Positions 1 to 28,577 of a DNA stretch of 36,097 nt are shown here, one piece after another. This stretch comes from Cyanobacteria bacterium GSL.Bin1. Lineage in GTDB: Bacteria; Cyanobacteriota; Cyanobacteriia; Cyanobacteriales; Rubidibacteraceae. Every line of letters starts with the position of its first letter. The stretch's first letter is position 1. The stretch spans positions 1-36,097 of the forward strand of contig JAAANX010000134.1 of the NCBI GenBank assembly GCA_009909085.1, in the 5' to 3' direction. A model generated the notes under the pieces. It was not told the DNA's origin. It saw only the letters and a program-made list of their open reading frames with translations, and did no database searches. Made by a program: the position numbers and the translations under genes.

Positions 1-93
1 GTAAGCCCCGTCGAAGTGTCGGGGGCGATGTGCCTAGATAACTGGCGTAGGGGAGCAATGCCCGTTCGTGAGGATGGGAAGCCAGCACTCTAA
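1..93 (+). CDS. Partial CDS: C-terminal tail of a probable IS200/IS605-family TnpB
   Basis: An open frame enters from outside the window and ends at TAA. It encodes 30 residues, finishing with MPVREDGKPAL. The frame runs directly into a strong hairpin flanked by GAAGCC and GGAGGATGTCAC. This is how many tnpB genes end, with the omega RNA overlapping the 3' end of the coding sequence. A similar arrangement lies at the other edge of the window on the opposite strand, where the tail contains TIKREGRKTGEA. The catalytic RuvC part is outside the window, so the family call rests on tail and hairpin context only. It could instead be the end of another short gene. Confidence 0.45.
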   Translation, partial: VSPVEVSGAMCLDNWRRGAMPVREDGKPAL

Positions 94-121
94 TCTCTGA
101 TTGAGTGCTGGAGGATGTCAC
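76..121 (+). ncRNA. Probable omega-RNA 3' end / right end of an IS200/IS605-type element
   Basis: CCAGCACTC (82-90) pairs perfectly with GAGTGCTGG (103-111). After one bulged T, AATC pairs with GATT around a TCT loop. The hairpin is preceded by GAAG and followed by GAGGATGTCAC. The hairpin near the right window edge (35987-36017, minus strand) has the same layout: GAAGCC, a stem of about 13 pairs with a three-base loop, then GGGAGTACGTCAC. Sequence conserved only outside two unrelated stems suggests a structural RNA or a transposase-recognised end. By analogy with TnpB systems, the guide would start just after GTCAC. Confidence 0.5.
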
Positions 122-130
122 CTAATTCCC

Positions 131-163
131 TCCCCTTTTTAACACAACAGAGAGGGGAATTTT
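131..163. terminator. Weak hairpin with T-tract
   Basis: TCCCCT (131-136) pairs with AGGGGA (153-158) and is followed by ATTTTT on the plus strand. On the minus strand the same stem is followed by AGGGAATTAGG, with no U-tract. It lies between the element end and the convergent gene that starts downstream. The stem has only six pairs with a 16-base loop, so termination is uncertain. Confidence 0.3.
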
Positions 164-173
164 TCTGACTTAT

Positions 174-737
174 TTACCGAATTGGGTTCCAGTTAGATGA
201 GACCTGTAGCTCACTATAAGGCTTGGGGCAAACTTTGGCTTGTTGATGAACTTTTGATGAGAAAATTGGCTGATAAGTGTCACCCGTTAGATACTCTAAG
301 GTACTTCTTATCGCTTGTTGAGTGAGATACGATATATTCTGATCTGGTTGATTATTAACCGCAGGGACTAAAATCCAATAAGCATCAAGTTGTTTTCCGT
401 ACACTCTTTTGATGAAAGATAATAAAGAATAAGGAGGATTGGGGTAAGAAATACCAATCTCAGGTTGCTCATAGTTGGGAAGAAAATGTTTGATAATTAT
501 TTCGGGATTCATTTCATCTAAGAGAAGATATGACCCAATGAAAATTACCGTTTTTGCTTGAGCCACTCGAGAGGCTAGGCTTGAAGATAAATGATAAACA
601 CTGAGGGCTTGAATGGACTTAAGACTTTTCTGTTTTATCGCTTCTGCAATGTGACGCCCTGCACTGTTATCCGCTTTTCTTTTATCCCCATAGCCTATAA
701 CCAAAAGCGGCACTTCTTGACCTGAGGAATCACTCAT
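174..737 (-). CDS. Hydrogenase maturation protease-like protein (M52 fold), probably degenerate
   Basis: The 187-residue product opens with LLVIGYGDKRKADNSAGRHIAEAI. This resembles the N-terminal signature of HybD/HycI/HoxW nickel-hydrogenase endopeptidases, where GxGNxLxxDDGxG is followed by a helix. Family members trim the C terminus of the hydrogenase large subunit. Here the usual N after G is D, and DDG is replaced by DNS, so a metal-binding acidic residue appears to be lost. Alternating hydrophobic strands (TVIFIGSYLLL, YWILVPAV) fit the alpha/beta fold. No hydrogenase gene lies in the window. It may be a non-proteolytic relative or a divergent copy. The start is an ATG followed by a plausible frame; I see no strong ribosome site. 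Confidence 0.45.
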   Translation of the reverse strand: MSDSSGQEVPLLVIGYGDKRKADNSAGRHIAEAIKQKSLKSIQALSVYHLSSSLASRVAQAKTVIFIGSYLLLDEMNPEIIIKHFLPNYEQPEIGISYPNPPYSLLSFIKRVYGKQLDAYWILVPAVNNQPDQNISYLTQQAIRSTLEYLTGDTYQPIFSSKVHQQAKVCPKPYSELQVSSNWNPIR

Positions 738-1221
738 AGTTGATTAAGAAATATAATTTAAAGCTTGATCTTAGTTTTGAATTATAGTTTTTATTTAAAA
801 AATCTGCAATAAAACTCATTACAGTAAAACTGAATTAAAACTCTTAATTTTGAGATTTTATTGAGTTTCTTTTTCCAGATTATTACGGGTTTTCTGATCA
901 AAAGCACAGTTTGGTTTTATCTTGAATCGATAATTTTTATGATATAAAAAACTTTCTTTGAGAATAAACTGTTGCGATAGTAAAAACTGCTCACTCATCA
1001 AAAGTAATCCTTAACGAACTAAACCCCTTATTTAGGTTTGATCCCAATTGTTTTTAGTCATCTCATTTCCCATCCTCACTGTAAGCATTATCTTTTTGAT
1101 TGCAAGTTTGTGTCTTATTCACTCTGTGACACCAATAGAGAGCGAAAGATCTATTTGTGATTAATTAACTATTCAGTTATATTTAGAAATAAGGAGTTAT
1201 GTAAATCAGAGGTTACAAGCA
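738..1221. other. 484-bp AT-rich intergenic region upstream of petC
   Basis: It separates a divergent gene pair, so it should hold promoters for both the hydrogenase-protease-like gene and petC. The DNA is very AT-rich, with runs such as TTTTTATTTAAAAAA. AAGGAG (near 1191) lies about 25 bases ahead of the petC ATG, too far to be its ribosome site; AGAGGTTAC is the nearer candidate. I saw no convincing long open frame, RNA gene or transposon remnant here. Confidence 0.4.
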
Positions 1222-1767
1222 ATGGATCATCCCAATCGCTTACCATTGGACAATTCTGTCCCTTCAGTTTCTCGACGACAGCTACTCAACTTTTTTACGG
1301 GTGCGGTTGTAGCGAGTACCGCTGGGGCTGCCCTTTATCCGGTGCTCAAATCCTTTACGCCTCCTTCAGTAGGAAATGGAAACAAGGGCATCATCGCTAA
1401 AGACAAAATGGGGCATCCCATACCAGCCAGTCAGATTTTAAGTCAACCGGTAGGAACCCGCGCCCTGGTTGCTGGATTAGCCGGAGAACCCACCTATTTA
1501 ACCGTACAAGAAAATCAAACCCTTGGCGATAGGGGAATTGTTGATAATTGTACGCACTTGGGTTGTACATTTCCCTGGAATGAAAATGCCCAACAGTTCC
1601 AATGCCCTTGTCATGGTTCTCGCTTCGCCCCAGATGGTTCTGTAGAAAGGGGTCCAGCGGATCGTCCTTTGAAGTTAGTTCATGTTGCGGTTAAAGATGA
1701 CCAGATTTGGATTTTCCCTTGGACAGAAACTGATCCCCGTACTGGAGAAACCCCTTGGTGGGTTTAG
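1222..1767 (+). CDS. petC: Cytochrome b6f-type Rieske iron-sulfur protein, stand-alone copy
   Basis: This 181-residue Rieske protein would pass electrons from plastoquinol to cytochrome f or another acceptor at the thylakoid or plasma membrane. The two cluster-binding boxes are intact: CTHLGC at 110-115 and CPCHGS at 128-133. An N-terminal SRRQLLNFF precedes a hydrophobic segment (about 23-42), giving the usual Tat-like uncleaved anchor, and PWTETDPRTGETPWW is the typical C terminus. The major cyanobacterial petC sits upstream of petA. Here a convergent unrelated gene begins 20 bases after the stop, so this is probably an accessory isoform of the PetC2/PetC3 kind. The box sequences, with FPWNENAQQFQCPCHGSRF, are also less canonical than main-copy PetC. 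I infer the isoform; Rieske identity is certain. Confidence 0.93.
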   Translation: MDHPNRLPLDNSVPSVSRRQLLNFFTGAVVASTAGAALYPVLKSFTPPSVGNGNKGIIAKDKMGHPIPASQILSQPVGTRALVAGLAGEPTYLTVQENQTLGDRGIVDNCTHLGCTFPWNENAQQFQCPCHGSRFAPDGSVERGPADRPLKLVHVAVKDDQIWIFPWTETDPRTGETPWWV

Positions 1768-1787
1768 TTTAATGATTCTGTTCTGCT

Positions 1788-2747
1788 TCAGGCAACACGC
1801 AGGAGTTCAGTGAGAATAGCTTCTACCGGGCGCGGTTCCCAATTTAATTCTTTTCTGGCTTTGCTGGCATCAACGCGCACACAGCGGTCATAAATATAAT
1901 GAACTCGTTCTCGACTCAGGGGCGGTTGCCAATTCAGGAAATGTCCAATGGGGGTGAGAAGACTACCTAACAAACGAATTAACCATTGGGGTGCTTCTTT
2001 GGGCGTGGCAATCCCGGTTTTTTCACTCAGGAAGTCGAACATTTCGCCAATGGTCAGTTCACCAGCAGAGATAATGTAGTGTTCTCCAGAATGTCCAATC
2101 GCAACCGCGTTGAGCATTGCTGTTACGAGATCGTCTACATGAACAATGCCAGTGGGCCGATCGCGCCCTGGCCAAAATTTTAAGTTCCCACTGCGAAAAA
2201 GCTTGACAATCTGACCAAAGTGAGGATCATCTCCCCCAAAAATACCTGAGGGTAAAACACTAACCACCGGTAAGCCTTGTTCTGCCATTTGATCAACGAG
2301 GTTCTGTGCTTCGTACTTCGTCCAATCATACGCCGAAGAGAAGCCCGTTTGTTGTCGAGTAAACGTTTCATCAACCACTTGCCCTTGCGTATCTCCGAGA
2401 ACGCCAATGGTGCTGCAATAGACAATTTTTGACACCCCTTGGGCTTGTGCCGTTTCCATCACTGCTTGCGTGCCTTCAATATTCACCCGTGCCATAGCTT
2501 GGGCATTGACGACGCCTAATTCCACATAAGCCGCCACATGAAACACCACATCCACCCCGGACATTGCTTTTTCTAAAATTGCGCGATCGCAGATGTCTCC
2601 TTTGACCAATCTGACTTGCGACGCTGCCAGTCGGGATAAATCACTGGTGGGACGCACCAAGCCCACCACTTCATCCCCCCTTTTTTCTAAGGCCCGTACT
2701 AGGTGAGAACCGGTAAATCCATTTGCCCCTGTTACTAACGCTTTCAT
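1788..2747 (-). CDS. NAD-dependent epimerase/reductase, probable ceramide reductase (CerR-like)
   Basis: A 319-residue extended short-chain dehydrogenase. The Rossmann motif TGANGFTG (G7, G10, G13) and catalytic YDWTK (Y140, K144) are present, and the overall sequence resembles dihydroflavonol-reductase/3-beta-HSD-like epimerases. Its ATG overlaps the upstream GNAT stop codon as ATGA, so the two are translationally coupled. In Caulobacter, a NAD-dependent epimerase-family protein (CerR) acts with SPT and the bacterial ceramide synthase to reduce the 3-oxo group of the sphingoid backbone. The same three families are adjacent here in operon order. Family is clear from sequence; the CerR role is inferred from neighbours. 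Alternatives are hopanoid-associated sugar epimerase (HpnA-like) or another DFR-like enzyme. Confidence 0.7.
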   Translation of the reverse strand: MKALVTGANGFTGSHLVRALEKRGDEVVGLVRPTSDLSRLAASQVRLVKGDICDRAILEKAMSGVDVVFHVAAYVELGVVNAQAMARVNIEGTQAVMETAQAQGVSKIVYCSTIGVLGDTQGQVVDETFTRQQTGFSSAYDWTKYEAQNLVDQMAEQGLPVVSVLPSGIFGGDDPHFGQIVKLFRSGNLKFWPGRDRPTGIVHVDDLVTAMLNAVAIGHSGEHYIISAGELTIGEMFDFLSEKTGIATPKEAPQWLIRLLGSLLTPIGHFLNWQPPLSRERVHYIYDRCVRVDASKARKELNWEPRPVEAILTELLRVA

Positions 2748-3871
2748 AGTTCTTTCTCGTACATTCGATACGTTTTATAAATCTTGGCGCCGGTTTCTTC
2801 AATTAAACGACGGGACGGCAAATTATCAGCATACACCCAAGAGAGTTCCGCACTTTTGTAGGACTTTTTGTTTTGAAACGCCGCCTGAATCAAAGCCAGA
2901 GGCACCAACTTCCGGCGGTATTCTGGGAGGCAACAAATGACAATGACGCGTCCAGCGTGGATTTGCCGGCGATACCAGAGAAACTTAAGAATGCCCCACC
3001 AGTTGAGTTTGCCATTCACCTGTTTGAGCGCAATGTTATAGTCCGGGAGTCCCATAAAAAAGCCGATCATTTCACCATTATCCTCAGCAATGGGAAAAAC
3101 ATCGGGATCCACTAAATCTTGCAGCGATCGCGCTTGCGCCATAAACTCTTCTTCCGTGCGCGGCGTCGAACTCCAACTGTCTTCAAACAAGCGCGTAAAC
3201 AGCTCATAAATCTTCGCAATATCGGCTTGAAACCCTTCTCCTTTGGTCTGCAAGGGACGAAAGGTTATTCCCGAACGACAGGCAATGCGGTAGGCTCTCT
3301 CAAATTTATCACCTAGCCCTTCCTCCAGAGAAAGGTGATACGCATAAGCTTCTTTGGCAATGGTTCCACCGTGGGCTAGGAACAATTCTTCATAATACGG
3401 CGGGTTATAGGGCATCATAATTTGGGGAGGAGACTCAAAGCCATCCACCAGCCATAAGCAATTATTGTGAGTGGATAAATCAATGGGACCGCGCATTTGG
3501 GTCATCCCCTGTTCTCGCAACCAAGTTTCTGCCGCCTGAAATAAAGCGGTGGCAACCCCTTGGTCTTCAATGCACTCAAAGAAACCAAAAAAGCCAATAT
3601 TTTCTCCTTCTTTGGCAATTAAACGCTCATTGACTGCCGCCACAATCCGTCCCACAGGCACCTGATCAGCATTGAGAGCAATAAAAGGTTGAAAGCGACC
3701 ATATTGGTGAAAGGGATTTTCAGGGGAGAGTTCTTTTTCTGTCTCACTTTTCAGCGGAGGAACCCAATTCGGATCGGTTTGATAAACCCGCCATGGCAGA
3801 TTTAAAAATTGTTCTTTTTCAGCGGGAGTTGTTACCGGTTGTACCGTAACGCTTGTTTGGGAAGTAACCAC
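2744..3871 (-). CDS. YghO-like GNAT protein, probable bacterial ceramide synthase (bCerS-like)
   Basis: The 375-residue product begins with a variable segment, then PWRVYQTDPNWVPPL and later GFFGFFECIEDQ and MRGPIDLSTHNNCLWLVDGF. These blocks are characteristic of long GNAT-fold proteins annotated as E. coli YghO-like. The C-terminal part (GRVIVICCLPEYRRKLVPLAL and ELSWVYADNLPSRRLIEETGAKIYKTYR) is a typical acyl-CoA-binding GNAT region. In Caulobacter a protein of this type N-acylates the SPT product. The start is GTG with a weak ribosome site, 62 bases after the SPT-like gene, and the stop overlaps the next ATG. Membership in the YghO-like family is well supported. The acylation substrate is inferred from the gene trio. 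Confidence 0.7.
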   Translation of the reverse strand: MVTSQTSVTVQPVTTPAEKEQFLNLPWRVYQTDPNWVPPLKSETEKELSPENPFHQYGRFQPFIALNADQVPVGRIVAAVNERLIAKEGENIGFFGFFECIEDQGVATALFQAAETWLREQGMTQMRGPIDLSTHNNCLWLVDGFESPPQIMMPYNPPYYEELFLAHGGTIAKEAYAYHLSLEEGLGDKFERAYRIACRSGITFRPLQTKGEGFQADIAKIYELFTRLFEDSWSSTPRTEEEFMAQARSLQDLVDPDVFPIAEDNGEMIGFFMGLPDYNIALKQVNGKLNWWGILKFLWYRRQIHAGRVIVICCLPEYRRKLVPLALIQAAFQNKKSYKSAELSWVYADNLPSRRLIEETGAKIYKTYRMYEKEL

Positions 3872-3933
3872 AGCAATTTATTCTGGAGAATACAACGGAG
3901 TAGAGGAGGTGAGGAGAAATAAAAGGGTAAGAA

Positions 3934-5214
3934 TTAAGCACTAATGACCGGTTGGTAAACTAGATCGCGGGTTTGCACCATTGCTGAAACCAGTTGATCC
4001 ATTTCTGCTTCCGTATGCAAGGCATTGGCGGTAATGCGGAGTCGGGGTTTGGCAATAAACCAAATCGGAGAAACCCAAATATTATGATCAGCCAAGAGGG
4101 TGCGTCCAAAGTGCTTAGGATTAATTTCCGGCGGCAAGAGGACAGGAATCACATTCGTTTCGCCAATAGCTTCAAATCCGGCTTCTTTCAAACGCGATCG
4201 CAGATAGTGGGTATTGTATTGTAATTTTTGTACCAGTTGTGGATTACTACGCACTTGACGGATACTTTCTAGGGCAGCAGCAGTGGTCGGTGGCGGTAGT
4301 GAAATTGTCCCAATGGAGGTTGGCGACACATTTAATAAGGGGATTAACTCCGGAACATGAGAACTAATGGCAGCACCGGCTGAGGCAGCAAATTTAGAAA
4401 AGGTCGTCATTACTAAAGGGATGACGCCTCGCGCGATCGCGTCTCGGGGCGTCATTTGGAAATGTTCAAATATCCCATGCCCAGTTGCGCCAATTGCCCC
4501 ACTCCCATGGGCTTCATCTAAAAATAAAACACTGCCTTCATAATTAGACAGCACTTCAATCATTTCGGGTAAGGGGGCAATATCTCCATCCATGGAAAAA
4601 ACGGTATCAGTCACCACGAGAATCCGATCATCGGGACGAGCATATCGTTTTAACTTCCGGGCGAGATCTTGAGTATCACAATGTCGATAGGCTTTGACAC
4701 GGACTTTTGGGCTATGACCAAATACTTTACCGGAACGGGTATTAGCGTTAACAACTGCTGACACAATACAACCATGATTGAGCACATCAGTCATAATCAG
4801 GGTTTCTCTAGTATGCTCAAATCCGGGAACAGGAATAGCAAGATGACAAAAGGCATCGGCTAATGCTTGCGTTGCCATCCAAGCATTTAAGAACAACTGG
4901 GTATGAGGTAACCCTTTAAATGCGGAAATTTCCTCTTCGAGTTCCCGATGTAAATCAATGCGCCCACTCAGTACAGAACAGGAACTATTGGAAGTTCCAT
5001 AATGATGAATCGCATTGATCGCTGCTTCTTTAACCGCCGAATTTTGGACTAAGCCTAAGACATCATTGGTACAGAAAGTCAGAACAGTTTGTCGCGTGCC
5101 ATCTTTTGGGTGCTCAATCTCGACAAAGTTTCCTTGTTTACTATGGCAGATGTATTCATCGGGAGCAAGCCCACTCTGGTACCAGCGCTGGACATATTCT
5201 TTAACAGTTTGCAC
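3934..5214 (-). CDS. Alpha-oxoamine synthase, probable serine palmitoyltransferase
   Basis: A 426-residue PLP enzyme of the class II aminotransferase group that condenses an amino acid with an acyl thioester. Visible motifs are the SNSSCSVLSGRIDLHRELE block (75-93), NHGC near 146, DEAHGSG with D233 and H236, and TTFSKFAASAG with the probable Schiff-base lysine K274. Start choice: GTG at 5214, preceded by GAGGAG about nine bases upstream. The same fold includes BioF, KBL, HemA and CAI-1 synthase. Two features favour SPT: the TFSK pocket without a biotin context, and the neighbouring ceramide-synthase-like and reductase-like genes. Substrate (serine, palmitoyl-CoA or acyl-ACP) cannot be read from sequence. 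First gene of the operon. Confidence 0.75.
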   Translation of the reverse strand: MQTVKEYVQRWYQSGLAPDEYICHSKQGNFVEIEHPKDGTRQTVLTFCTNDVLGLVQNSAVKEAAINAIHHYGTSNSSCSVLSGRIDLHRELEEEISAFKGLPHTQLFLNAWMATQALADAFCHLAIPVPGFEHTRETLIMTDVLNHGCIVSAVVNANTRSGKVFGHSPKVRVKAYRHCDTQDLARKLKRYARPDDRILVVTDTVFSMDGDIAPLPEMIEVLSNYEGSVLFLDEAHGSGAIGATGHGIFEHFQMTPRDAIARGVIPLVMTTFSKFAASAGAAISSHVPELIPLLNVSPTSIGTISLPPPTTAAALESIRQVRSNPQLVQKLQYNTHYLRSRLKEAGFEAIGETNVIPVLLPPEINPKHFGRTLLADHNIWVSPIWFIAKPRLRITANALHTEAEMDQLVSAMVQTRDLVYQPVISA

Positions 5215-5302
5215 GAGTTCACTCCTCTCTCCTGGGTTTTAATAGCGACTACGCTTTGAGTCGGTTGATTGAAGGGTATATTCCTAGCCAGATTGTAGCA
5301 GG

Positions 5303-5319
5303 GGAGGTAAATGACCTCC
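5303..5319. promoter_or_regulatory. Small dyad upstream of the SPT-like gene
   Basis: GGAGGT and ACCTCC are perfect inverted repeats separated by five bases. They lie 89 bases upstream of the SPT-like GTG, inside the 201-bp region between two divergent genes. The dyad may be an operator, but six pairs can occur by chance. Confidence 0.25.
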
Positions 5320-5415
5320 ATTGCTTGTAAATCTTCTTTCTTTTGATAGTTTTCTCATTTCTCAATTATTGCTTCAATCGCCACTGTTACGCTACTCAAT
5401 CAGTTTAAAAAAAAT

Positions 5416-6075
5416 ATGGTAAATTATCTCATCACAGGAGCCAATCGTGGCATTGGCCTAGAATACTGCAAGCAGCTAAAAGCAAAAGGAGAAACAGTGA
5501 TTGCGGTTTGTCGCGAACCGAGTGAAGAATTGAAAAGTTTGGGGGGACAAATTGAATCAGGAATTGATGTTACCTCTGATGATTCGGTGACAGAACTTGT
5601 CAAACGCCTCCAAGGAACGACCATTGATGTCTTAATTAATAATGCCGGAATTATCGAAGCGAATTCCTTAGATGATTTGGACTTTGAGAGTTTAGAACGC
5701 CAATTCCGGGTCAATGCAGTGGCACCGTTGCGGGTCACGAAGGCCCTTTTACCGATGATTCCTCAAGGTGGGAAAATTATTTTAATGACCAGTCGCATGG
5801 GGTCAATTGAGGATAATACTTCTGGTGGTTTTTATGGCTATCGTATGTCAAAAACAGCGCTCAGTATGGCAGGGAAATCCTTAGCAGAAGATTTAAAGCC
5901 ACGCCAAATTGCTGTTGGGATTCTCCACCCAGGAATGGTGCAAACTCGCATGACCGGTTTCTCTGGCATTACACCTACCGAATCAGTGGAAGGATTATTA
6001 AAACGGATCGAAGAACTCAATTTAGAAAATTCTGGGACGTTTTGGCACGCGAAAGGAGAAGTGCTGCCTTGGTAA
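5416..6075 (+). CDS. Classical short-chain dehydrogenase/reductase (C-factor/carbonyl reductase-like)
   Basis: The 219-residue protein has TGANRGIG (G8, G12, G14) for NAD(P) binding, NNAG at 75-78, and YRMSK with catalytic Y142 and K146. The preceding active-site serine is in MTSRMGS (S126 or S130). Length and motifs fit the csgA/C-factor-type SDRs and sniffer-like carbonyl reductases. The ATG follows an A-rich run with no evident Shine-Dalgarno. It is divergent from the sphingolipid-like operon and could share a regulatory region with it, but nothing shows they share a pathway. The substrate is unknown. Confidence 0.85.
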   Translation: MVNYLITGANRGIGLEYCKQLKAKGETVIAVCREPSEELKSLGGQIESGIDVTSDDSVTELVKRLQGTTIDVLINNAGIIEANSLDDLDFESLERQFRVNAVAPLRVTKALLPMIPQGGKIILMTSRMGSIEDNTSGGFYGYRMSKTALSMAGKSLAEDLKPRQIAVGILHPGMVQTRMTGFSGITPTESVEGLLKRIEELNLENSGTFWHAKGEVLPW

Positions 6076-6084
6076 TTCGTTATT

Positions 6085-6141
6085 AGTCATTTGTCATTTG
6101 TCATTTGTCATTAGCTATTAACTGACAGAGGGCAAATGACT
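6085..6141. repeat. Heptamer tandem repeat (GTCATTT) with an inverted partner
   Basis: GTCATTT occurs in three full copies and one six-base copy (6086-6112), directly after the SDR stop. About 20 bases later, CAAATGACT (6133-6141) is the exact complement of AGTCATTTG (6085-6093), so the transcript can fold with several registers. Short tandemly repeated heptamers of this kind are known from cyanobacterial intergenic DNA. The A-run after the inverted copy would read as a U-tract only on the other strand, ahead of the hairpin, so it is not an obvious terminator. Confidence 0.7.
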
Positions 6142-6163
6142 CAGAAAAAATAACTGATTACTG

Positions 6164-6724
6164 CTAGAATGGCATCACATTTTCCACTAAAATTTTTGTG
6201 CCAATTCCCATTAAGATTAAACCACCAACAATTTCAACTTTGCCTTGGCAAAAATGACCAAAACGATGACCCATGAAAACGCCAAAAAAGCAAAGAATAA
6301 ATGTTACTAAGCCAATCATCGTTACCGTTAAGGGTAAGGGCATTTTGATGACAGATAAGCCAACGCCAGCGGCTAATGCATCAATACTGGTCGCGATCGC
6401 GAGTCCCAATAAAGTGGAAGTATCAAGGGGATTAAAGGGTTCTTCTTGCTCATCTTTTAAAGCTTCGTAGATCATATTTCCCCCTAACCATCCCAATAAA
6501 AGAAAAGCAACCCAATGCGCGATCGCGCTAACCAATTCCCGAAATCCTAATCCCATCATCCAGCCTAAAACGGGCATTAACGTTTGAAAGACACCAAAAA
6601 ATAACGCAATCTTCAACGCCTTATTAATTTTAATTCGTTTAATTAACAAGCCACTGGTCAACGAAACAGCCAGTGCATCTGCTGCTAAGCCAATGCCCAT
6701 TAAGCCAATTGTGAGAAGTTGCAT
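6164..6724 (-). CDS. mntP: MntP-family manganese efflux pump
   Basis: The 186-residue polytopic membrane protein has six hydrophobic segments in two halves. Each half carries the family acidic motif: LAADALAVS with D16, and ATSIDALAAG with D115. These aspartates correspond to residues required for Mn(II) export in this family. A short charged loop (KDEQEEPFNP) separates the halves. It stands alone, convergent with the SDR gene. I looked for a yybP-ykoY manganese riboswitch upstream, as precedes many mntP genes, and saw none. Regulation is therefore not evident. Family assignment is strong; manganese as substrate is by family knowledge. Confidence 0.88.
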   Translation of the reverse strand: MQLLTIGLMGIGLAADALAVSLTSGLLIKRIKINKALKIALFFGVFQTLMPVLGWMMGLGFRELVSAIAHWVAFLLLGWLGGNMIYEALKDEQEEPFNPLDTSTLLGLAIATSIDALAAGVGLSVIKMPLPLTVTMIGLVTFILCFFGVFMGHRFGHFCQGKVEIVGGLILMGIGTKILVENVMPF

Positions 6725-7095
6725 ATTTTGCTTCTATGAACAATAAAGGAACCGAAATTAGTTTCATCATAATGGTTTCTTTCTTTTAATTGGTTCACAA
6801 TTACTTCATATTCCCTTGATTTTTTTTTCATAGTTTGCTCTCGCTTTAAGACAAGAAAAAACTGTTCTTAGTTTCAAGGTGACACGATTCATCATCAGGA
6901 AATTAGAAAGTGACTTGATGAATTGAAAAAAATAGTTGTCAAACTCATCAATTGTCTCCATAAAGAATTTGAGGTAATTCTCTCAAGGAAAAAACCATTG
7001 TCTCCGTAAATATTACTATGTGTAACGATTTTCCCTGTCGCGAATGCAGCGAATTCCTGACTGGCGAGTGGCAATCATACCGATAAACGCTGAAT
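6725..7095. other. Intergenic region between mntP and sir, left part
   Basis: AT-rich DNA between divergent genes, expected to hold the mntP promoter. A near-match to an NtcA-type site, GTA-N8-TAT, lies at 7006-7019 but lacks the final C. No open frame or RNA gene was recognised. Confidence 0.35.
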
Positions 7096-7126
7096 TCAAG
7101 CTGAAAACACATGATACTCAAGCTGA
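7096..7126. promoter_or_regulatory. Pair of direct repeats TCAAGCTGA upstream of sir
   Basis: TCAAGCTGA occurs at 7096-7104 and 7118-7126. The copies are 22 bases apart, close to two helical turns, so a dimeric regulator could bind both on one DNA face. The first copy also lies in an imperfect palindrome, CTGAATTCAAG. The pair ends about 53 bases before the first possible sir start. The regulator is unknown; LysR-type sulfur regulators or the ribbon-helix-helix domain of Sir itself are possibilities. Confidence 0.4.
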
Positions 7127-7129
7127 GAA

Positions 7130-7173
7130 AGTGGATCCTACTTTGACTAGTGGACATTGAAAAATGATCCACT
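7130..7173. repeat. Inverted repeat next to the sir start
   Basis: AGTGGATC (7130-7137) and GATCCACT (7166-7173) are perfectly complementary across a 28-base loop. The second arm ends six bases before the upstream sir ATG. If transcribed, the stem would sit in the 5' leader. Confidence 0.4.
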
Positions 7174-7179
7174 CACGAT

Positions 7180-9174
7180 ATGATGGAATTAATCACCGTA
7201 ATTCCGAGCGAGTTATCGGTGATCCAAAAATGTGCAGCGATCGAGCAAGAAGCAGTAATGGTAGCATCTAAAGCAAAGAAAGCCTCTAAACCCTCGAAAT
7301 TAGAAGGAATTAAAGAAAATAGCAATTTCTTACGGGAACCCCTCGCCACAGAACTGTTAGAAGACACCACTCACTTCAGTCAAGATGCGGTTCAAATCTT
7401 GAAATTTCATGGGTCTTACCAGCAAGACAACCGCGATAATCGCCAGAAAGGGCAAGAAAAAGACTATCAGTTCATGCTGCGGACGCGGAACCCAGGAGGC
7501 TTCATTCCGCCAGAACTCTATTTGACCCTTGATGACCTTGCCACTGAATACGGGAACCAAACCCTCCGCGTGACCACCCGTCAAGGTTTCCAGCTTCACG
7601 GCATTCTGAAGAAAAACCTGAAAGAAACCATTAGCCGCATTGTCCGCAATATGGGGTCAACCCTCGGAGCCTGTGGTGACTTAAATCGTAACGTAATGGC
7701 TCCGCCAGCTCCCTTTAAAGATCGTAAAGAATACCAATATGCCTGGGAGTATGCGGATCAGATTGCCGATCTCCTGCGTCCGCAAACGGAAGCCTATTAT
7801 GAAATTTGGCTCGATGGGGAAAAATTCCTCAGTGTCGAAGAAGCGCCGGAAGTGCAAGCGGCGCGAGAACGCAATGGTAACGGCACAATTTTCCACGAAG
7901 GGGAAGAACCGATTTATGGGAAACATTATATGCCCCGCAAGTTTAAGTGCTGTGTGACGGTACCGGGGGATAACTCGATTGATGTGTATACCCATGATGT
8001 CAGTTTGATTGTAATAACTGACGAACAAGGAGAACTCCAAGGGTTTAATGTTCTCGCCGGTGGGGGAATGGGACGCACCCATAATAAAGAAGAAACCTTT
8101 GCCCGGATGTCAGATCCCATTTGTTATGTGGATAAAGCGGATGTGTATGATCTGCTAAAAGCAATTGTTGCCACCCAAAGAGATTACGGCGATCGCGTGC
8201 AGCGTCGTCATGCCAGAATGAAGTATCTCCTCTATGATTGGGGCGTCGAGAAGTTCCGATCCAAGTTAGAAGAATACTATGGGAAACCCCTGAAACCCTA
8301 TCAAGATCTGCCGCCTTTTGAGTATAAAGATTTTCTCGGTTGGCACGAACAAGGAGATGGCAAACTCTTCTTTGGCTTATCTGTGGAAAATGGTCGCGTC
8401 AAAGATGAAGGCAAATTCCGCTTAAAAACTGCCCTGCGCAAAGTAGTGGAACAATATGAAGTTCCCATGCGCTTAACGGCAAACCATGATGTGATTCTGT
8501 ATGAGATTAAGCCGGAAGATCAAGGCGCGATCGAAAAAATCCTGAGTGATCATGGCTTAATTACCGATCCAAAAGATTTGGATCATCTCCTCCGCTATTC
8601 TATGGCGTGTCCCGCCCTCCCCACTTGTGGCTTAGCGATTACCGAATCGGAACGAGCCTTACCGAGTATTTTAGACCGGGTTCGTAGTGTCTTGAAAAAA
8701 CTGGGAATGGCAGAACAAGACCTTGTTGTCCGGATGACCGGATGTCCCAATGGTTGCGCCCGCCCTTATATGGCAGAATTAGGCTTTGTTGGGAGTGCCC
8801 CGAAAGCCTATCAACTCTGGTTAGGAGGAACACCCAACCAAACGGCACTTGCTCGTCCTTATATGGAACGGATGCCCATTGATGAGTTAGAAAGCTATAT
8901 TGAGCCGATGTTGGCGTTTTACAAAGACAAACGTCAGAAAGAAGAAAGTTTTGGCGAGTTTTGCAATCGGGTTGGCTTTGAAGCCATTGAACACTATGTC
9001 AATCGCTATGAGTTCAAACCGATCAAAACGCCTAGTGCGGGTGGAAAAGGTCGCCGTCATCGCATCAGCGTTTATGAAGGACTCCACGAACGCCTGAAAG
9101 CAGCGGCGGAAAAACGAGGAACGAGCATGACGCAGCTTGTATCAGAGGCACTAGAAAAATATCTGGATGAGTAG
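7180..9174 (+). CDS. sir: Ferredoxin-sulfite reductase with a C-terminal ribbon-helix-helix domain
   Basis: The enzyme reduces sulfite to sulfide using six electrons from ferredoxin in assimilatory sulfur metabolism. The siroheme/4Fe-4S ligands are all present: C477 and C483 in CPALPTCG, C522 and C526 in GCPNGCARP. Substrate-binding [24 protein letters not shown] and RRHARMKYL blocks are conserved. The conserved reductase ends near residue 612. After a basic linker, residues 626-664 form an added [20 protein letters not shown]... segment ending [13 protein letters not shown], a typical MetJ/Arc/CopG DNA-binding fold. The first 26 residues look non-conserved, so ATG at 7258 (MVASKAKK) is a likely alternative start. 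Neither start has a clear ribosome site. Sulfite reductase identity is certain; the DNA-binding role of the tail is inferred. Confidence 0.95.
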
Positions 9175-9257
9175 GTTGGCTGAAAAAGTTCATGGGTTGG
9201 TGGAGTTAGGAACCAGGGAATAGCCTTCTCTCTCCTCTCCCACCTCTACCCATCATT

Positions 9258-9665
9258 TCAAAACTGACGGATTCCTACAAGGTTTGGTTCGACCGTAACG
9301 TAATCCGATGGATGATTAAACTCGTACTTCTCACCTGAAAATGCGTCGTAGAGGGCTCTATGACGCTTCAAACCATACTCATCATCACGAATATTGTATG
9401 AGCGAACCCACTGAATCAGATTTTCCAAATTTTTGTCTTGAGCCTCTTTCGACTCGAATTTTTCTGGTTCCCAAGGTCTTGCTTTGCAGTGGGAGACGCA
9501 ACTTTCCACACCGGGGTTAAGGAAAATTAATTTCTTGCAGTAGGGTAGCAACGGCTCAAGAATATCAGCATAGCAGCCTTCAATAAGCCAGCTTTCATTA
9601 GTTTCTATGAATGTTTTTGCTTCGGCGATGCTCTCTGCAAGGGGACGCCGATCAGCGCCTTTCAT
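9258..9665 (-). pseudogene. Truncated P-loop nucleoside/shikimate kinase-like gene lacking its P-loop
   Basis: The 135 residues match the C-terminal two thirds of small adenylate/shikimate-kinase-like ATPases: SWLIEGCYADIL, LIFLNPGVESCV, RPWEPEKF and RHRALYDAFSGEKYEF. Intact relatives start with a GxxGxGKS/T Walker A loop about 45 residues earlier. The frame upstream of the ATG stays open for about 33 codons to a TAG but encodes GGFKRRIHCVLLG, with no P-loop. The start has been lost by deletion or rearrangement, so the product cannot bind ATP normally. It may be a remnant of a horizontally moved gene. Convergent with sir, 83 bases away. Confidence 0.65.
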
Positions 9666-9703
9666 GCCTAGTAAAACGCAATGAATGCGACGTTTGAAGC
9701 CCC

Positions 9704-9891
9704 CTAAATGCTGACCGAGATCATGCCTGTAACGCCACCCATTCCAGCTGCTGAGGCAATGCTACCTAAATGATAAACGTACCCATGAAGCAATGAATTA
9801 GCGGTAAAATAGAGAACTGTTAAGTAAAAAAATGTCCTAAATTGTAAGTCTGAACTTGCCTTAGAAATGAAAACGCTTTTTTAATATTCAT
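9704..9891 (-). pseudogene. Possible frameshifted small hydrophobic ORF
   Basis: An ATG at 9891 opens 23 codons (MNIKKAFSFLRQ...) that end at TAA just after a run of seven T. Shifting frame in that run continues for about 40 more codons through YLTVLYFTANSLLHGYVYHL and GSIASAAGMGGVTGMISVSI to TAG at 9704. The hydrophobic, plausible protein sequence across the homopolymer suggests a frameshifted gene. It lies immediately upstream of the kinase pseudogene. I do not recognise the family, and chance is possible. Confidence 0.2.
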
Positions 9892-9903
9892 CCCGAGAAA
9901 GTT

Positions 9904-10467
9904 ATGAATCAAATCATCAGCCCGATCCGATGGACCATCCATGACTTAGACGCACTGCCAGAAAACGAAGGGATTCGCCGGGAAATTATTGATGGAGAAT
10001 TATTTGTGACTCGTGCGCCCCATTGGAAACACCAAAATATCATTACCAACATCAATGCTGCCCTTCATAATTGGTCAAAGACATACTCTGGTTTTGTCAT
10101 CCCTTCCCCCGGGATTCTCCCTTCAAAAGAAGATAGCGTAATCCCTGATTTGGTTTGGGTGAGTAATGAGCGATTAGCAGCAATTGAAGACGAAGCGGGG
10201 CACTTCACGGGGTTCCCGGAACTGGTGGTGGAGGTGCTCTCGGCAGGAGAACGCAATATTTACCGCGACAAGCAAGCCAAGTTAAAACTCTATTCCCAAG
10301 GGGAGGTTCAAGAATATTGGATCGTTGACCGCTTTCGCCAACAATTAGAAGTTTATCGCCAGCAGAAGGGACAATTGGTGTTAGTGGAAACGCTAACTGC
10401 AACTGATACCTTAACTTCTCCTTTATTTCCGAATTTTTCTCTGTCTGTCTCCCAAATTTTTGCTTGA
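9904..10467 (+). CDS. Uma2 family (DUF820) putative endonuclease
   Basis: The 187-residue protein belongs to the PD-(D/E)xK-like Uma2 family, which is greatly expanded in cyanobacteria. Signature elements are REIIDGELFV near the N terminus, the PDLVWVS core aspartate, PELVVEVLS with the second acidic residue, and EYWIVD. Many paralogues per genome are usual, and no cellular function is established. A GAAAG lies just before the ATG. It stands alone between a kinase remnant and convergent murD. Family assignment is confident; nuclease activity is only predicted from the fold. Confidence 0.88.
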   Translation: MNQIISPIRWTIHDLDALPENEGIRREIIDGELFVTRAPHWKHQNIITNINAALHNWSKTYSGFVIPSPGILPSKEDSVIPDLVWVSNERLAAIEDEAGHFTGFPELVVEVLSAGERNIYRDKQAKLKLYSQGEVQEYWIVDRFRQQLEVYRQQKGQLVLVETLTATDTLTSPLFPNFSLSVSQIFA

Positions 10468-10533
10468 GTTTAAAAAAAAGGATGCCTCTTTGAACTGAAC
10501 ATCCACTGGGAACTAGCATTGGCGTGATCGCTG

Positions 10534-11886
10534 TTAAGCACCGAAGTGCAGACAAAGTTGACGAAAATGATCGCCGCGCTGTTCAAAGTTGTCATATTGA
10601 TCAAAGCTGGCACAAGCGGGTGAAAGGAGAACCACCGAGCCTTCTTGCTTTTTTACCCGATTGATCGCTTCAATGACTGCATTGTCCATGGTCTCTACCA
10701 CTTGATACGCTGAATAGCCCATTGCTTCTAAACGTTGGGCAAATTGATCAGCTGCTTCACCAATCAACAAAACGAGACTAGCTTTTTCTTTGATCAAGTG
10801 AAACCAATCTTTATCATTGCCGGTTTTGGCTTGTCCCCCTGCAATTAAAATAACTGGACTGGGAACAGAGGATAAGCCCACTGTTGCTGCTTCGTAGTTA
10901 GTCGCTTTACTATCATTGATGAAAGAGACGCCTTCAATTTCACAAATCGGTTCGAGGCGATGGGGAACCCCCTGAAAATTAATAATACTGTGCGCGATCG
11001 CGCTTTGATCCACATTCGCTAAACGGGCGGCGCCAATGGCAAGCAAGAGGTTTTGTAAGTTATGTTCCCCTGCCATAGGAAAATCTTTAACATTCAAGAT
11101 TTTTTCGCCAAAAGCAATAATGTCATCCCCTTCAATATAAATGCCATGACTGGGCTTTCCCAGCAGTTGACTTTTTCCCTGAATACTCGTCCAATGAACA
11201 GCAGACCAGTCTTCTTTTGCTAAACGACGCAGATGGGGATCATCCCCATTGAGAACTTTTAAATGGGCGCGATCGAGCAAAGACTTTTTAATCGCAAAAT
11301 AATTTTCGAGGGTGTAGTGACGTTCTAAATGATCCGGACTAAAGGTTGTCCAAACGCCAATTTCTGGGGCGAGTTTTTGAGAGGATTCAATTTGATAACT
11401 ACTAATTTCTGCAATAATCCAATCCCAAGCCGTGTTTTTTAAGCCCAATTCACAAGCAGCATTCCCAATATTGCCACAAGCCGGAGCTTTTAAACCTGCC
11501 CCTTGAAACAAGGCAGAACACAGTGCCGTGGTTGTTGTTTTACCGTTTGTGCCTGTAATCCCTACCCAAGGCGTATCCGATAAACTGCGCCAAGCCAGTT
11601 CAATTTCGCCATACATGGGAATTTCATGTTCGCGAGCGCGCACTAAAATTGGAATATCCCAAGGAACACCCGGGCTAACGATGATTAAATCAGCCGTTTG
11701 AAGCGCATCTATGGTTGGGGTATCTTGTAATTTAACGGTAATTGCTTCCTGAGCCAGGTCATGTTGACGGGCTTGCAAGGAGTCAGACATTCCGCGATCG
11801 CTGAGGATGACCTCCCACCCTTGTTGCTTCAACAAACGAGCAGCAGCCACTCCAGAACGCCCGAGTCCAATTACGTATGCTTTCAT
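10534..11886 (-). CDS. murD: UDP-N-acetylmuramoylalanine--D-glutamate ligase
   Basis: MurD adds D-glutamate to UDP-MurNAc-L-Ala with ATP in cytoplasmic peptidoglycan precursor synthesis. Visible are the N-terminal Rossmann-like VIGLGRSGVAAARLL, the mur ligase P-loop GITGTNGKTTTTALC, TTFSPDHLERH, and the C-terminal domain with NDSKATNYEAA, GG near the next strand and LLSPACASFDQYDNFEQRGD. I place the start at the ATG giving MKAYVIGLG (450 residues). A longer TTG-initiated form adds seven residues (MNTKKHR) and fits worse with the family N terminus. It follows clpC in the same direction after a 137-base gap that contains its own promoter-like sequence. No dcw neighbours are present, as is common in cyanobacteria. 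Confidence 0.95.
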   Translation of the reverse strand: MKAYVIGLGRSGVAAARLLKQQGWEVILSDRGMSDSLQARQHDLAQEAITVKLQDTPTIDALQTADLIIVSPGVPWDIPILVRAREHEIPMYGEIELAWRSLSDTPWVGITGTNGKTTTTALCSALFQGAGLKAPACGNIGNAACELGLKNTAWDWIIAEISSYQIESSQKLAPEIGVWTTFSPDHLERHYTLENYFAIKKSLLDRAHLKVLNGDDPHLRRLAKEDWSAVHWTSIQGKSQLLGKPSHGIYIEGDDIIAFGEKILNVKDFPMAGEHNLQNLLLAIGAARLANVDQSAIAHSIINFQGVPHRLEPICEIEGVSFINDSKATNYEAATVGLSSVPSPVILIAGGQAKTGNDKDWFHLIKEKASLVLLIGEAADQFAQRLEAMGYSAYQVVETMDNAVIEAINRVKKQEGSVVLLSPACASFDQYDNFEQRGDHFRQLCLHFGA

Positions 11887-11918
11887 CCTGTGTTTCTTGG
11901 TGTTCAATATTTTCCCCG

Positions 11919-11947
11919 ATTATAAGAGATATCCCTTCTTCTCCAAA
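11919..11947 (-). promoter_or_regulatory. Candidate murD promoter
   Basis: On the minus strand, a perfect TATAAT (-10) occurs 32 bases before the murD ATG, with TTTGGA 17 bases upstream as a weak -35. The -35 falls inside the hairpin described next, so promoter and hairpin may compete. Confidence 0.35.
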
Positions 11948-11965
11948 GCTGGAAAAGAAGGGATA
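11930..11965 (-). terminator. Long hairpin between clpC and murD
   Basis: TATCCCTTCTT (11930-11940) is perfectly complementary to AAGAAGGGATA (11955-11965). Three more pairs (TCC/GGA) form inside a mismatch, around the loop AAAGCT. It lies 58 bases after the clpC stop. The minus-strand sequence after the stem is TCTCTTATAAT, which is only moderately T-rich. It could be a clpC terminator or a barrier to 3' decay. Confidence 0.5.
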
Positions 11966-12023
11966 GGGGTTAGAATCTCAGCGATTTATGGTTTTGAGGA
12001 TCCTGCTTTCAGGGTTGATCTAC

Positions 12024-18626: not shown

Positions 18627-20263
18627 GTGCTCAACGCCTTACGGCATCAATGGTTGGTGAACAATGAAGCTACTCAACATCCCATCAGATGCTAACTCGT
18701 GCTCAACGCCTTACGGCATCAATGGTTGGTGAACATCAACTTCTCCTTCGCCACCGATCATGTGTTCATCAGGTGCTCAACGCCTTACGGCATCAATGGT
18801 TGGTGAACATTCCACGTTAAACAAGCAACCGACAACACAATTTAGTGCTCAACGCCTTACGGCATCAATGGTTGGTGAACAAGAGTTTCCTGCCTTTCCC
18901 GAGGTAGAGGGACAAACGTGCTCAACGCCTTACGGCATCAATGGTTGGTGAACGATGGCTAGGCAATACTTGCAAACAATTTCAGACAAGTGCTCAACGC
19001 CTTACGGCATCAATGGTTGGTGAACTTTGCCCCCTCGCCATCAACGTCAACAGCTATTAGTCGTGCTCAACGCCTTACGGCATCAATGGTTGGTGAACCA
19101 GGAACCCAATATTGTTCGCGATAAATTTGTTGGTGCTCAACGCCTTACGGCATCAATGGTTGGTGAACATAGTTAAGCAAAAAGGAGCAATCAGACAATG
19201 CTGAAATGTGCTCAACGCCTTACGGCATCAATGGTTGGTGAACTGGTGACTTCTCCTGACCATATCCAACCTTCTTGCTCGTGCTCAACGCCTTACGGCA
19301 TCAATGGTTGGTGAACTGAGGTTGTCTCTGATAACTCAATTGCTTATCTTTATGTGCTCAACGCCTTACGGCATCAATGGTTGGTGAACAATTTATCAGC
19401 CATCAGTAATGCTAATACTCGAATCTGTGCTCAACGCCTTACGGCATCAATGGTTGGTGAACTTTTCAGTTATTGGAAAAGTAATAGCTGGCGACTCTTG
19501 TGCTCAACGCCTTACGGCATCAATGGTTGGTGAACTTTAGTGCCTCTTTTATTTCTTCTTCAGACTGATAAGGTGCTCAACGCCTTACGGCATCAATGGT
19601 TGGTGAACCTTGAATCTTGTACTTGAAAACACTATGTCGCGATAAGTGCTCAACGCCTTACGGCATCAATGGTTGGTGAACTGGTGAACTGTAATATTTG
19701 TTTGGCTTCTTCTTGACTGTGGGGTGCTCAACGCCTTACGGCATCAATGGTTGGTGAACGAGAGGATCGATTTCATGAATAACAATTCTCCCTTGTGCTC
19801 AACGCCTTACGGCATCAATGGTTGGTGAACTACATTATCATCTACATCTTGCTGGCTATCCTCATCTAGTGCTCAACGCCTTACGGCATCAATGGTTGGT
19901 GAACCGTTCGTCAAGAGTGCTAGTGGCATCCCGTCCTCTCTGTGCTCAACGCCTTACGGCATCAATGGTTGGTGAACTTGTAGCACGCCAAAATAATTTT
20001 GGTGAAAGTTACGTGCTCAACGCCTTACGGCATCAATGGTTGGTGAACATTCGGGTTTCTTACCCCTTGGACGCGGAGGGAGAGTGCTCAACGCCTTACG
20101 GCATCAATGGTTGGTGAACTTTCTCCCCGTTAGAGGCAAGTTTGCCTGTAGTCAAGTGCTCAACGCCTTACGGCATCAATGGTTGGTGAACAGATCGCGA
20201 TAGATTTGATCCGCCGTTTTGTGCCTCGTGCTCAACGCCTTACGGCATCAATGGTTGGTGAAC
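18627..20263 (-). CRISPR. CRISPR array: 23 repeats, 22 spacers
   Basis: A 36-base repeat occurs 23 times, identical in every copy as far as I can read. Spacers are 34-42 bases, most often 37. On the minus strand the repeat starts GTTCACCAACC and ends GTTGAGCAC. Within it, ATGCC-GTAA-GGCGT forms a five-pair stem closed by a GNRA tetraloop, leaving an eight-base TTGAGCAC handle. On the plus strand the stem has an A-C mismatch and no GNRA loop. This favours minus-strand transcription, in line with the cas genes. The youngest spacers would then be at the high-coordinate end. The spacer at 19682-19723 (42 bases) begins with TGGTGAAC, a copy of the last eight bases of the plus-strand repeat. Confidence 0.97.
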
Positions 20264-20535
20264 AGCGCGCGCTGAAACCCTTACCCAGAGCCAGCTCAGA
20301 ACTGATTTTACAAGCAACTTGTTTCATAATGGTTCTCGCAGTAGTTGACGTCTTCCAATGGGTTATTGTTTCAACCGAATCAAATCTGATTGATTAAGGC
20401 TATGCCACGTTTCCAGAGCTTTTCACTAATTTTGCAAGCACCTACCAGGAACTGAAAATTGATAAAATGTTGATCAGGAGTGGCTTTAAGTGCTTAGACC
20501 CGAATCAGCTTCCCCAACAAGCGGAGGTGCTTGCA
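20264..20535 (-). promoter_or_regulatory. Probable CRISPR leader between cas2 and the array
   Basis: The 272 bases between the cas2 stop and the array have no open frame of note. Their position next to cas2, together with the repeat orientation, makes this the leader. AT-rich stretches such as TTTTATCAATTTTCAG (minus strand) could hold the array promoter. A perfect 11-base inverted repeat, TGCAAGCACCT (20433-20443) with AGGTGCTTGCA (20525-20535), lies at the cas2 side and touches its stop codon. Confidence 0.6.
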
Positions 20536-22500: not shown

Positions 22501-22544
22501 AAGTTGAGACCTCAAATCAGAATTTTTAGTGATGATTTCACTTT

Positions 22545-22576
22545 AAAAAAAAGACCCGGAAAAAATGATTCCGAGT
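22545..22576 (-). terminator. Intrinsic terminator between cas5 and cas4-cas1
   Basis: On the minus strand, ACTCGGAA pairs with TTCCGGGT (eight pairs, one G-U) around a seven-base loop, followed by CTTTTTTTT. It lies in the 113-base gap after cas5, pointing in the direction of cas transcription. It would cut off, or reduce, read-through from the interference genes into cas4-cas1, cas2 and the array. Confidence 0.75.
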
Positions 22577-22613
22577 TCAGAACTTATTTAAAAATTGTCA
22601 AAAATTCTAATTA

Positions 22614-24121: not shown

Positions 24122-24153
24122 TAATTAATTCTCCTTTTGAGTAAGTGTCAAAA

Positions 24154-28566: not shown

Positions 28567-28577
28567 CCCTTCACTCC

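Follow-up and report, generated by a model that had tools for sequence, protein, structure and literature searches.

The stretch of DNA analysed here, referred to as the window, comprises 36,097 nucleotides of Cyanobacteria bacterium GSL.Bin1 (contig C134 of genome G000; source genome of 4.82 Mb in 210 contigs) and carries three adjacent leftward genes, termed the trio, for an alpha-oxoamine synthase (AOS), a GNAT-type N-acyltransferase (GNAT) and an extended short-chain dehydrogenase/reductase (SDR). The trio is inherited as a module among cyanobacteria and is rather likely to form the centre of a pathway by which these organisms make a ceramide-like lipid. Its features are as follows:

3934..5214, minus strand: AOS, alpha-oxoamine synthase of 426 amino acids with a GTG start (Pfam Aminotran_1_2, 1.9e-31), whose lineage is named cyAOS here
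2744..3871, minus strand: GNAT, candidate N-acyltransferase of the YghO/bCerS family, 375 amino acids with a GTG start (Pfam Acetyltransf_1, 4.8e-11)
1788..2747, minus strand: SDR, candidate 3-ketone (CerR-type) reductase of 319 amino acids (Pfam Epimerase, 7.8e-35; 3Beta_HSD, 3.5e-31)
2744..2747, minus strand: ATGA overlap of the SDR start and the GNAT stop, read from the sequence
4768..4776, minus strand: His-Gly-Cys of AOS, residues 147-149 (alignment of 63 cyAOS rows)
4807..4839, minus strand: insert 1 of AOS, residues 126-136 (same alignment)
4699..4734, minus strand: insert 2 of AOS, residues 161-172 (same alignment)

The three leftward frames (1788-2747, 2744-3871 and 3934-5214) were confirmed in the list of open reading frames of the window, and together with the Pfam matches they bear out the three adjacent leftward genes (5214-1788, minus strand) reported in a first-pass annotation. 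The ATGA coupling proposed there for the last two genes is real, because the minus strand at the GNAT/SDR junction reads GAACTATGAAAGCG, and AOS and GNAT, both of which begin with GTG in the frames as listed, are separated by 62 nt. The term operon, used in the same annotation, is consistent with the contiguity of the genes and the coupling of GNAT and SDR, but the promoter and terminator counts at the trio were no different from the shuffled range. The remark that no acyl carrier protein (ACP) gene accompanies the trio holds as well: no ACP-like frame was recognised by eye among frames of at least 60 amino acids at window positions 1-12000, a search that took in neither model scans of the short frames nor the rest of the genome, and no AcpR/AasR partner was recognised by eye near the trio among the same frames, again with no genome-wide search.

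As the first-pass annotation had proposed, the trio was sought in other cyanobacterial genomes, using a panel of 386 Cyanobacteriota genomes in all of which GNAT, AOS, SDR and a GH3 synthetase (discussed below) were searched, with identity cut-offs for gene presence chosen after inspection of the tables. GNAT was found at 57-100% identity in 29 of the 386 genomes, a further 18 having matches of 21-32% only, and SDR (E 1e-60 or better, 54-100% identity, with at most five candidates scored per genome) was found in the identical set of 29. At 69-100% identity, AOS is confined to 28 of these genomes, with none among the 357 others, the other matches listed, down to about E 3e-32, reaching at most 38%; in the 27 genomes besides the window's own, the copies are 69-94% identical to the window AOS. 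The 29 genomes fall under 15 family codes, all within the window's own class, and in several of them the trio genes lie on separate contigs or far apart, with the co-occurrence maintained. AOS-GNAT-SDR is a real co-inherited module, and a chance row is ruled out, because the genes are contiguous in cyanobacterial, Rubrobacter and Streptomyces records and co-occur even when unlinked. The nearest named relative is a Halothece metagenome-assembled genome (MAG) (GNAT 75%, SDR 76% and, for the part of the gene on the contig, AOS 81%). Distant GNAT relatives, from other classes of the phylum and from the trio-negative genome G278, had no adjoining AOS or SDR at E 1e-6 (8 loci); in G278 (L077, 4139-8042), a distant YghO-type GNAT (29%) lies near DevB-/DevC-like frames recognised by eye.

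The module is larger than the first-pass annotation had it, its remaining genes lying elsewhere in the genome. In 28 further loci, a Rieske oxygenase (directly upstream of AOS), a divergent major facilitator superfamily (MFS) transporter, the GH3 synthetase and a short fatty-acid (FA) hydroxylase were found as neighbours, and all four were scored in the 29 trio-positive genomes and in 40 trio-negative ones, the latter hand-picked rather than random, from the same class and mostly larger, with f25 genomes and those of other classes excluded. Rieske at 57% identity or more is present in 19 of the 29 positives versus 0/40 negatives (at most 44%, partial matches counted), MFS at 43% or more in 24/29 versus 0/40 (one negative at 30%), and FA hydroxylase at 71% or more in 26/29 versus 0/40 (four negatives at 51-61%), while GH3 at 46% or more occurs in 23/29 positives, none of the 40 negatives and none of all 357 other genomes, 10 of which have matches of 26-32%. 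GH3, FA hydroxylase, MFS and Rieske thus tend to go with the trio. Fisher tests ignore kinship, and a paired contrast test was used in their place, with a quick single-gene tree of sulfite reductase covering 65 of the 69 genomes (in the other 4 the marker was not matched at the threshold). On this tree, the trio label changes at least 12 times, with only 2 changes forced by supported branches, and across 12 path-disjoint trio contrasts on the best tree the four genes were concordant in about 10 and discordant in 0 (median sign-test p 0.002).

The four genes are placed as follows in the window's genome:

C34:53782-54825: Rieske oxygenase, 68% identical to the query from locus L063
C92:16309-17976: GH3 synthetase
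C92:18978-19457: FA hydroxylase, with an adjoining Mpo1-like gene
C128:80593-81723: MFS transporter

The Mpo1-like gene, of the 2-hydroxy-fatty-acid dioxygenase family, lies by the GH3 and hydroxylase genes, in line with a ceramide-like pathway. This GH3 locus (L171:5307-10317, on G000:C92) carries GH3, Cupin_8, FA_hydroxylase, Mpo1-like and amidohydrolase genes, and L185 has like-looking frames, judged by eye, in the same order. An Asp/Asn beta-hydroxylase (PF05118) was also considered as a module gene and rejected, because at E 1e-10 it is present in 7/40 trio-negative genomes as well as in 8/29 trio-positive ones; in two genomes (L182 and L183) MFS, GH3 and an Asp/Asn beta-hydroxylase, confirmed as PF05118 in L182, adjoin away from the trio. 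In genome G296 (L055, with the same GNAT gene as L093), the GNAT/SDR overlap is kept and Rieske and GH3 lie elsewhere in the genome, with no AOS, MFS or FA hydroxylase at the cut-offs used.

Gene order was compared in 109 loci, namely the window, the 28 further loci and the best 80 loci of a GTDB scan with the GNAT alignment, or 103 distinct loci once six identical pairs were removed. All of the best 80 have cyanobacterial titles, which is not a test of absence elsewhere, and their carriers include Moorena sp. SIO3H5, an uncultured Scytonema (only GNAT and SDR seen at the locus), Nostoc sp. WHI, Nostoc sp. FACHB-152, Calothrix parasitica NIES-267, Aliterella atlantica CENA595, Baaleninema simplex PCC 7105, Mastigocoleus testarum BC008 and Rhizonema MAGs. 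The trio occupies a single locus in C. parasitica NIES-267 (L137), and L133 is the locus of A. atlantica CENA595. Among the 103 loci, GNAT is present in 103 (by construction), SDR in 73, AOS in 62, Rieske in 42, MFS in 37, FA hydroxylase in 21 and GH3 in 15, counts that are lower bounds because many loci stop at the ends of contigs, many of them short. AOS-GNAT-SDR is contiguous on one strand in 33 loci and Rieske-AOS-GNAT-SDR in 20, and all seven genes occur together in four (L071, L112, L133 and L146). Moorena sp. SIO3H5 has the genes arranged as devC-devA-AOS-GNAT-SDR-devB, so that the trio is flanked there by a DevBCA exporter, all three proteins of which exceed their NCBIfam cut-offs. DevBCA serves in heterocyst-glycolipid export, a role at which the model names only hint, and here it stands with an AOS trio.

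Alpha-oxoamine synthases catalyse the pyridoxal phosphate (PLP)-dependent decarboxylative condensation of an amino acid with an acyl thioester, and the first gene of the trio can, from its residues and predicted fold, be assigned to this family with confidence. The catalytic set of the Sphingomonas paucimobilis serine palmitoyltransferase (SPT) is His159, Asp231, His234, Lys265 and Arg390, with residue roles given in PMC6148460, and all five residues are present in AOS: H147, D233, H236, K274 and R393 are kept in 63/63 cyAOS rows (which include four pairs from identical contigs) and in all 26 other AOS of the comparison set. The predicted structure has the AOS fold (pLDDT 74.7). The motif that begins with the PLP-stacking His is HGC in 62 of the 63 cyAOS rows and HAC in one, and in the other 26 AOS it is HAS (15), HSS (9), HTS (1) or HAC (1); His-Ala-Ser is called strictly conserved in AOS in PMC6148460, which the compared set does not match at the middle residue. 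In cyAOS, the Ser of the GSR motif is Cys in most rows and Thr or Val in 15 of the 63. Insert 1 (11 residues) is found in 63/63 cyAOS and is empty in 24/26 other AOS, with two residues in the remaining two; insert 2 (12 residues) is likewise found in 63/63 and is empty in 25/26, with four residues in one. In the alignment blocks printed, the PPxxP loop falls short of that in most other AOS by four residues and of that in cyanobacterial BioF by two. In the tree, the cyAOS rows group together (100/100) at the end of a very long stem (2.46), and cyanobacterial BioF forms a separate 100/100 clade. By its sequence, cyAOS is thus a deep lineage of its own with altered motifs and inserts.

The second gene is, on alignment, a full-length YghO/bCerS relative, as the first-pass annotation had held: it shows 30% identity to Escherichia coli YghO and 35% to the GNAT of the Rubrobacter trio, nearly over full length, and in the best 25 of 40 rows listed from 44 plasmid records the cover is 94-96% at 30-35% identity, the other rows listed being lower. 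Its predicted structure has a tandem-GNAT fold (pLDDT 83.2), with N-myristoyltransferases lower among the PDB matches. The GNAT tree, which has no Caulobacter row, is deep and allows no bCerS border to be drawn, rows labelled as outgroup having fallen inside. The third gene is, from its profile matches, a 3beta-HSD-like extended SDR; its top NCBIfam matches are HpnA (209 bits, cut-off 368) and SdmB (137 bits, cut-off 600), no CerR model appears among the best 25 of its 39 NCBIfam matches, and HpnA, under its cut-off, is also the best model for the E. coli CerR homologue. SdmA is in turn the top NCBIfam match of the Rieske (L063 copy; 246 bits, cut-off 600), and Rieske and SDR might be regarded as a sterol- or hopanoid-type modification pair like SdmA and SdmB, which act in bacterial sterol C-4 demethylation. 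This is very unlikely, as every score is under its cut-off, AOS and the YghO-type GNAT would be left unexplained, and these two accompany SDR more strictly (in 28 and 29 of its 29 genomes) than Rieske does (19/29).

The closest characterised counterpart is the Spt-bCerS-CerR pathway of Caulobacter (CC_1162/CC_1154/CC_1164), whose E. coli counterparts spt, epi and yghO correspond to CC_1162, CC_1164 and CC_1154, the last being the acyltransferase (ECD_02854/yghO/ECD_02852 in the order given first; PMC9386255). The trio resembles it in the clustering of an AOS, a YghO-family GNAT and an extended SDR and in the predicted chemistry of condensation, N-acylation and ketone reduction, but differs in that AOS is of another lineage, marked by two inserts and changed motifs, SDR is only distantly similar, and GH3, Rieske, the short FA hydroxylase and MFS (with DevAC in some loci) are found instead of a nearby AcpR/AasR. 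E. coli SPT with its AcpR/AasR forms 3-oxo-sphinganine, and the rhodobacterial sphingolipid cluster has a dedicated AcpR and acyl-ACP synthetase (PMC9386255). A copy of this canonical pathway, gained by transfer and with an ordinary SPT, would agree with the adjacency of the same three functions and with the best PDB sequence match of AOS, which is the Sphingobacterium multivorum SPT (E 2.5e-38). It is nevertheless improbable: AOS is only 27-28% identical to the E. coli and P. veronii SPTs and forms its own deep clade, AcpR/AasR was not seen near the trio, in contrast to Rhodobacteria, SDR is far from CerR, and the trees make a recent transfer unlikely. Trios known from genes alone in Rubrobacter radiotolerans (plasmid 1) and Streptomyces sp. 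NBC_01001 share the families, order and contiguity, with GNAT 34-35% identical, but differ in AOS (27-30%), in SDR (30-34% over 195-232 columns) and in their neighbours, an LTA synthase and a condensation-domain protein, respectively.

From the gene families and catalytic residues, a ceramide-like pathway with the following substrates and steps can be proposed. AOS would condense an amino acid, with serine as the first guess, with a long-chain acyl thioester, presumably acyl-ACP supplied by ordinary fatty-acid synthesis, and so give a 3-keto long-chain amine, GNAT would add a second acyl chain to the amine, and SDR would reduce the ketone. Even for Caulobacter there is disagreement on whether acylation or reduction comes first (PMC11087976). 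Judging from family names, Rieske and the short FA hydroxylase, where present in trio genomes, as they are in many, may hydroxylate the lipid, GH3 may attach an amino acid or a fatty acid through an amide bond or, alternatively, supply an N-acyl amino acid, and MFS and the DevBCA-type exporters may move the product outward; a role in the envelope would be a guess. The single NCBIfam match of GH3 (L061 copy) is OlsH, at 94 bits against a cut-off of 620, and OlsH of Singulisphaera is a GH3-type N-acyl-ornithine synthetase (PMC12493201). The product is best read as a ceramide-like N-acyl amino-alcohol lipid that is exported and probably hydroxylated. More tentatively, and short of likely, the seven-gene co-inherited module, with DevBCA-type exporters in some genomes, may make and export a new class of hydroxylated N-acyl amino-alcohol lipids by way of an AOS lineage distinct from those characterised, GH3 contributing a group linked through an amide, and may be the genetic basis of cyanobacterial sphingolipids. 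To our knowledge, no other sphingolipid has a GH3-type amide-linked group.

Sphingolipid producers were inferred in 40 phyla from Spt-like genes, for which the clade and, in part, adjacent bCerS and CerR genes served as criteria (PMC11334938), and the main text of that paper has a single occurrence of 'cyanobacteria', in a reference. According to PMC8895605, the only cyanobacterial sphingolipids identified are one from Scytonema julianum and one from Moorea producens, with their genetic basis unreported; apart from this work, no paper on cyanobacterial sphingolipid genes was found in a literature search with poor coverage of subscription journals. Npun_R3567, a BioF-type AOS and the sole AOS found in the Nostoc punctiforme genome, did not yield 3-ketodihydrosphingosine in E. 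coli, and the strain itself was found to contain no sphingolipid (PMC8895605). This enzyme and cyAOS are alpha-oxoamine synthases of the same phylum, but the BioF rows form their separate clade, and the Nostoc result does not contradict a function of the trio, because the BioF-type group was tested rather than cyAOS. Mooreaside A, a glucosylceramide from Moorea producens, combines a C17 base with a C25 acyl chain that bears no hydroxyl (PMC6272925); its link to the Moorena trio is suggestive only, SIO3H5 being a different strain. Ceramides, and also a ganglioside, were reported in Nostoc flagelliforme by untargeted lipidomics (PMC9222375), which is given little weight here.

Several points weigh against the ceramide-like reading. 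The motifs and loops of AOS are unlike those of the compared SPTs, and its scores lie under the cut-offs of all three NCBIfam SPT models (175.8 of 640, 160.9 of 500 and 110.2 of 670 bits), which by name cover only CFB and beta/alpha-proteobacterial SPTs. The best tree, which is without Caulobacter, Sphingomonas and Sphingobacterium rows and without Npun_R3567 itself, joins cyAOS and the SPT group at 65/73 only, a weak placement, and rejects neither a union with KBL (p 0.35) nor one with cyanobacterial BioF (p 0.32). In a structure search, SPT was not separable from ALAS, KBL and ThaOS and came at rank 13. SDR shows 19% identity over 317 columns to the E. coli CerR homologue, and G296 is the sole genome of the trio set without AOS, which we read as a decaying or altered module. 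On supported branches alone, the kinship control gives 2 independent contrasts, too few for significance. DevA-like and DevC-like genes are both present in 18 of the 103 loci (in 15 of them next to SDR on the opposite strand, by hit coordinates), but these counts have no background control, and exporters of this kind may be widespread there; the L133 pair is under the NCBIfam cut-offs (DevC 141 of 290, DevA 258 of 296). No headgroup enzyme was identified, and Mooreaside A, because it has no fatty-acid hydroxyl, does not show the hydroxylases at work. The first-pass assignment to the SPT family is thus not borne out as worded, and the trio matches the bacterial ceramide pathway named there in its composition, but SDR is only distantly like CerR; the AOS tree that it suggested neither upholds nor overturns the placement with BioF/KBL that it had named as refuting. 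Because of this weak union and the two unions not rejected, AOS is best called a candidate SPT, on account of the genes next to it and not of its place in the tree.

The same tree bears on a second BioF (biotin) or KBL (threonine degradation) enzyme beside unrelated genes, which would agree with the KBL union not rejected there and with bioF giving the highest NCBIfam score of AOS (228.9 bits). Such an enzyme is extremely unlikely here, since the bioF cut-off of 426.45 is not reached, AOS is co-inherited with GNAT and SDR, and no bio or tdh frames were recognised at window positions 1-12000 (most frames by eye). Another AOS, of BioF type and in the separate clade, is encoded elsewhere in the window's genome, by which AOS as the genome's only BioF is ruled out. 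A somewhat unlikely, though more serious, alternative is a specialised secreted metabolite in place of a membrane sphingolipid: AOS would use another amino acid (glycine, alanine or a basic one) or acyl donor, and GNAT, SDR, Rieske and GH3 would build an N-acylated aminoketone or amino-alcohol exported by MFS. The patchy spread (29/386), with the genes clustered in some genomes and dispersed in others, would suit this, as would the AOS motifs and inserts unlike those of the 26 compared AOS, the resemblance of MFS to efflux models (every match under cut-off) and the condensation-domain protein after the Streptomyces trio. The membership of GNAT in the YghO/bCerS family, the FA hydroxylase, the OlsH-like GH3 and DevBCA in Moorena, however, point to a lipid. 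The lipid product of the module is a prediction; the strongest part of the proposal is the co-inherited module, and the weakest is the name 'serine palmitoyltransferase'.

The trio is bordered in the window by petC on its left (1222-1767; NCBIfam PetC above cut-off) and by a divergent classical SDR on its right (5416-6075). Further along lie a CRISPR array of 20 CRISPR-DR33 repeats and, alongside, a type I-B-like cas set (18627-20264 and 20839-29564) with fused Cas4-Cas1, Cas5b, Cas7b, Cas8b (MYXAN type), Cas3b and a WYL regulator, followed at 30549-33002 by a helicase-like protein of 817 amino acids (top PADLOC match 'Helicase', 297 bits; NERD/UvrD-type matches weaker).

The trio encodes a different enzyme from the BioF-type candidate that failed, and it predicts which strains make or do not make such lipids. 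Because its carriers include strains with culture-collection names, the question can be tested by comparing trio-positive with trio-negative strains and by knockouts. The module thus offers a concrete genetic starting point for asking whether sphingolipids are made by cyanobacteria and by what route. If the ceramide-like reading is true, oxygenic phototrophs would join bacterial sphingolipid biology, bringing an enzyme lineage of their own and additional genes for tailoring and export.

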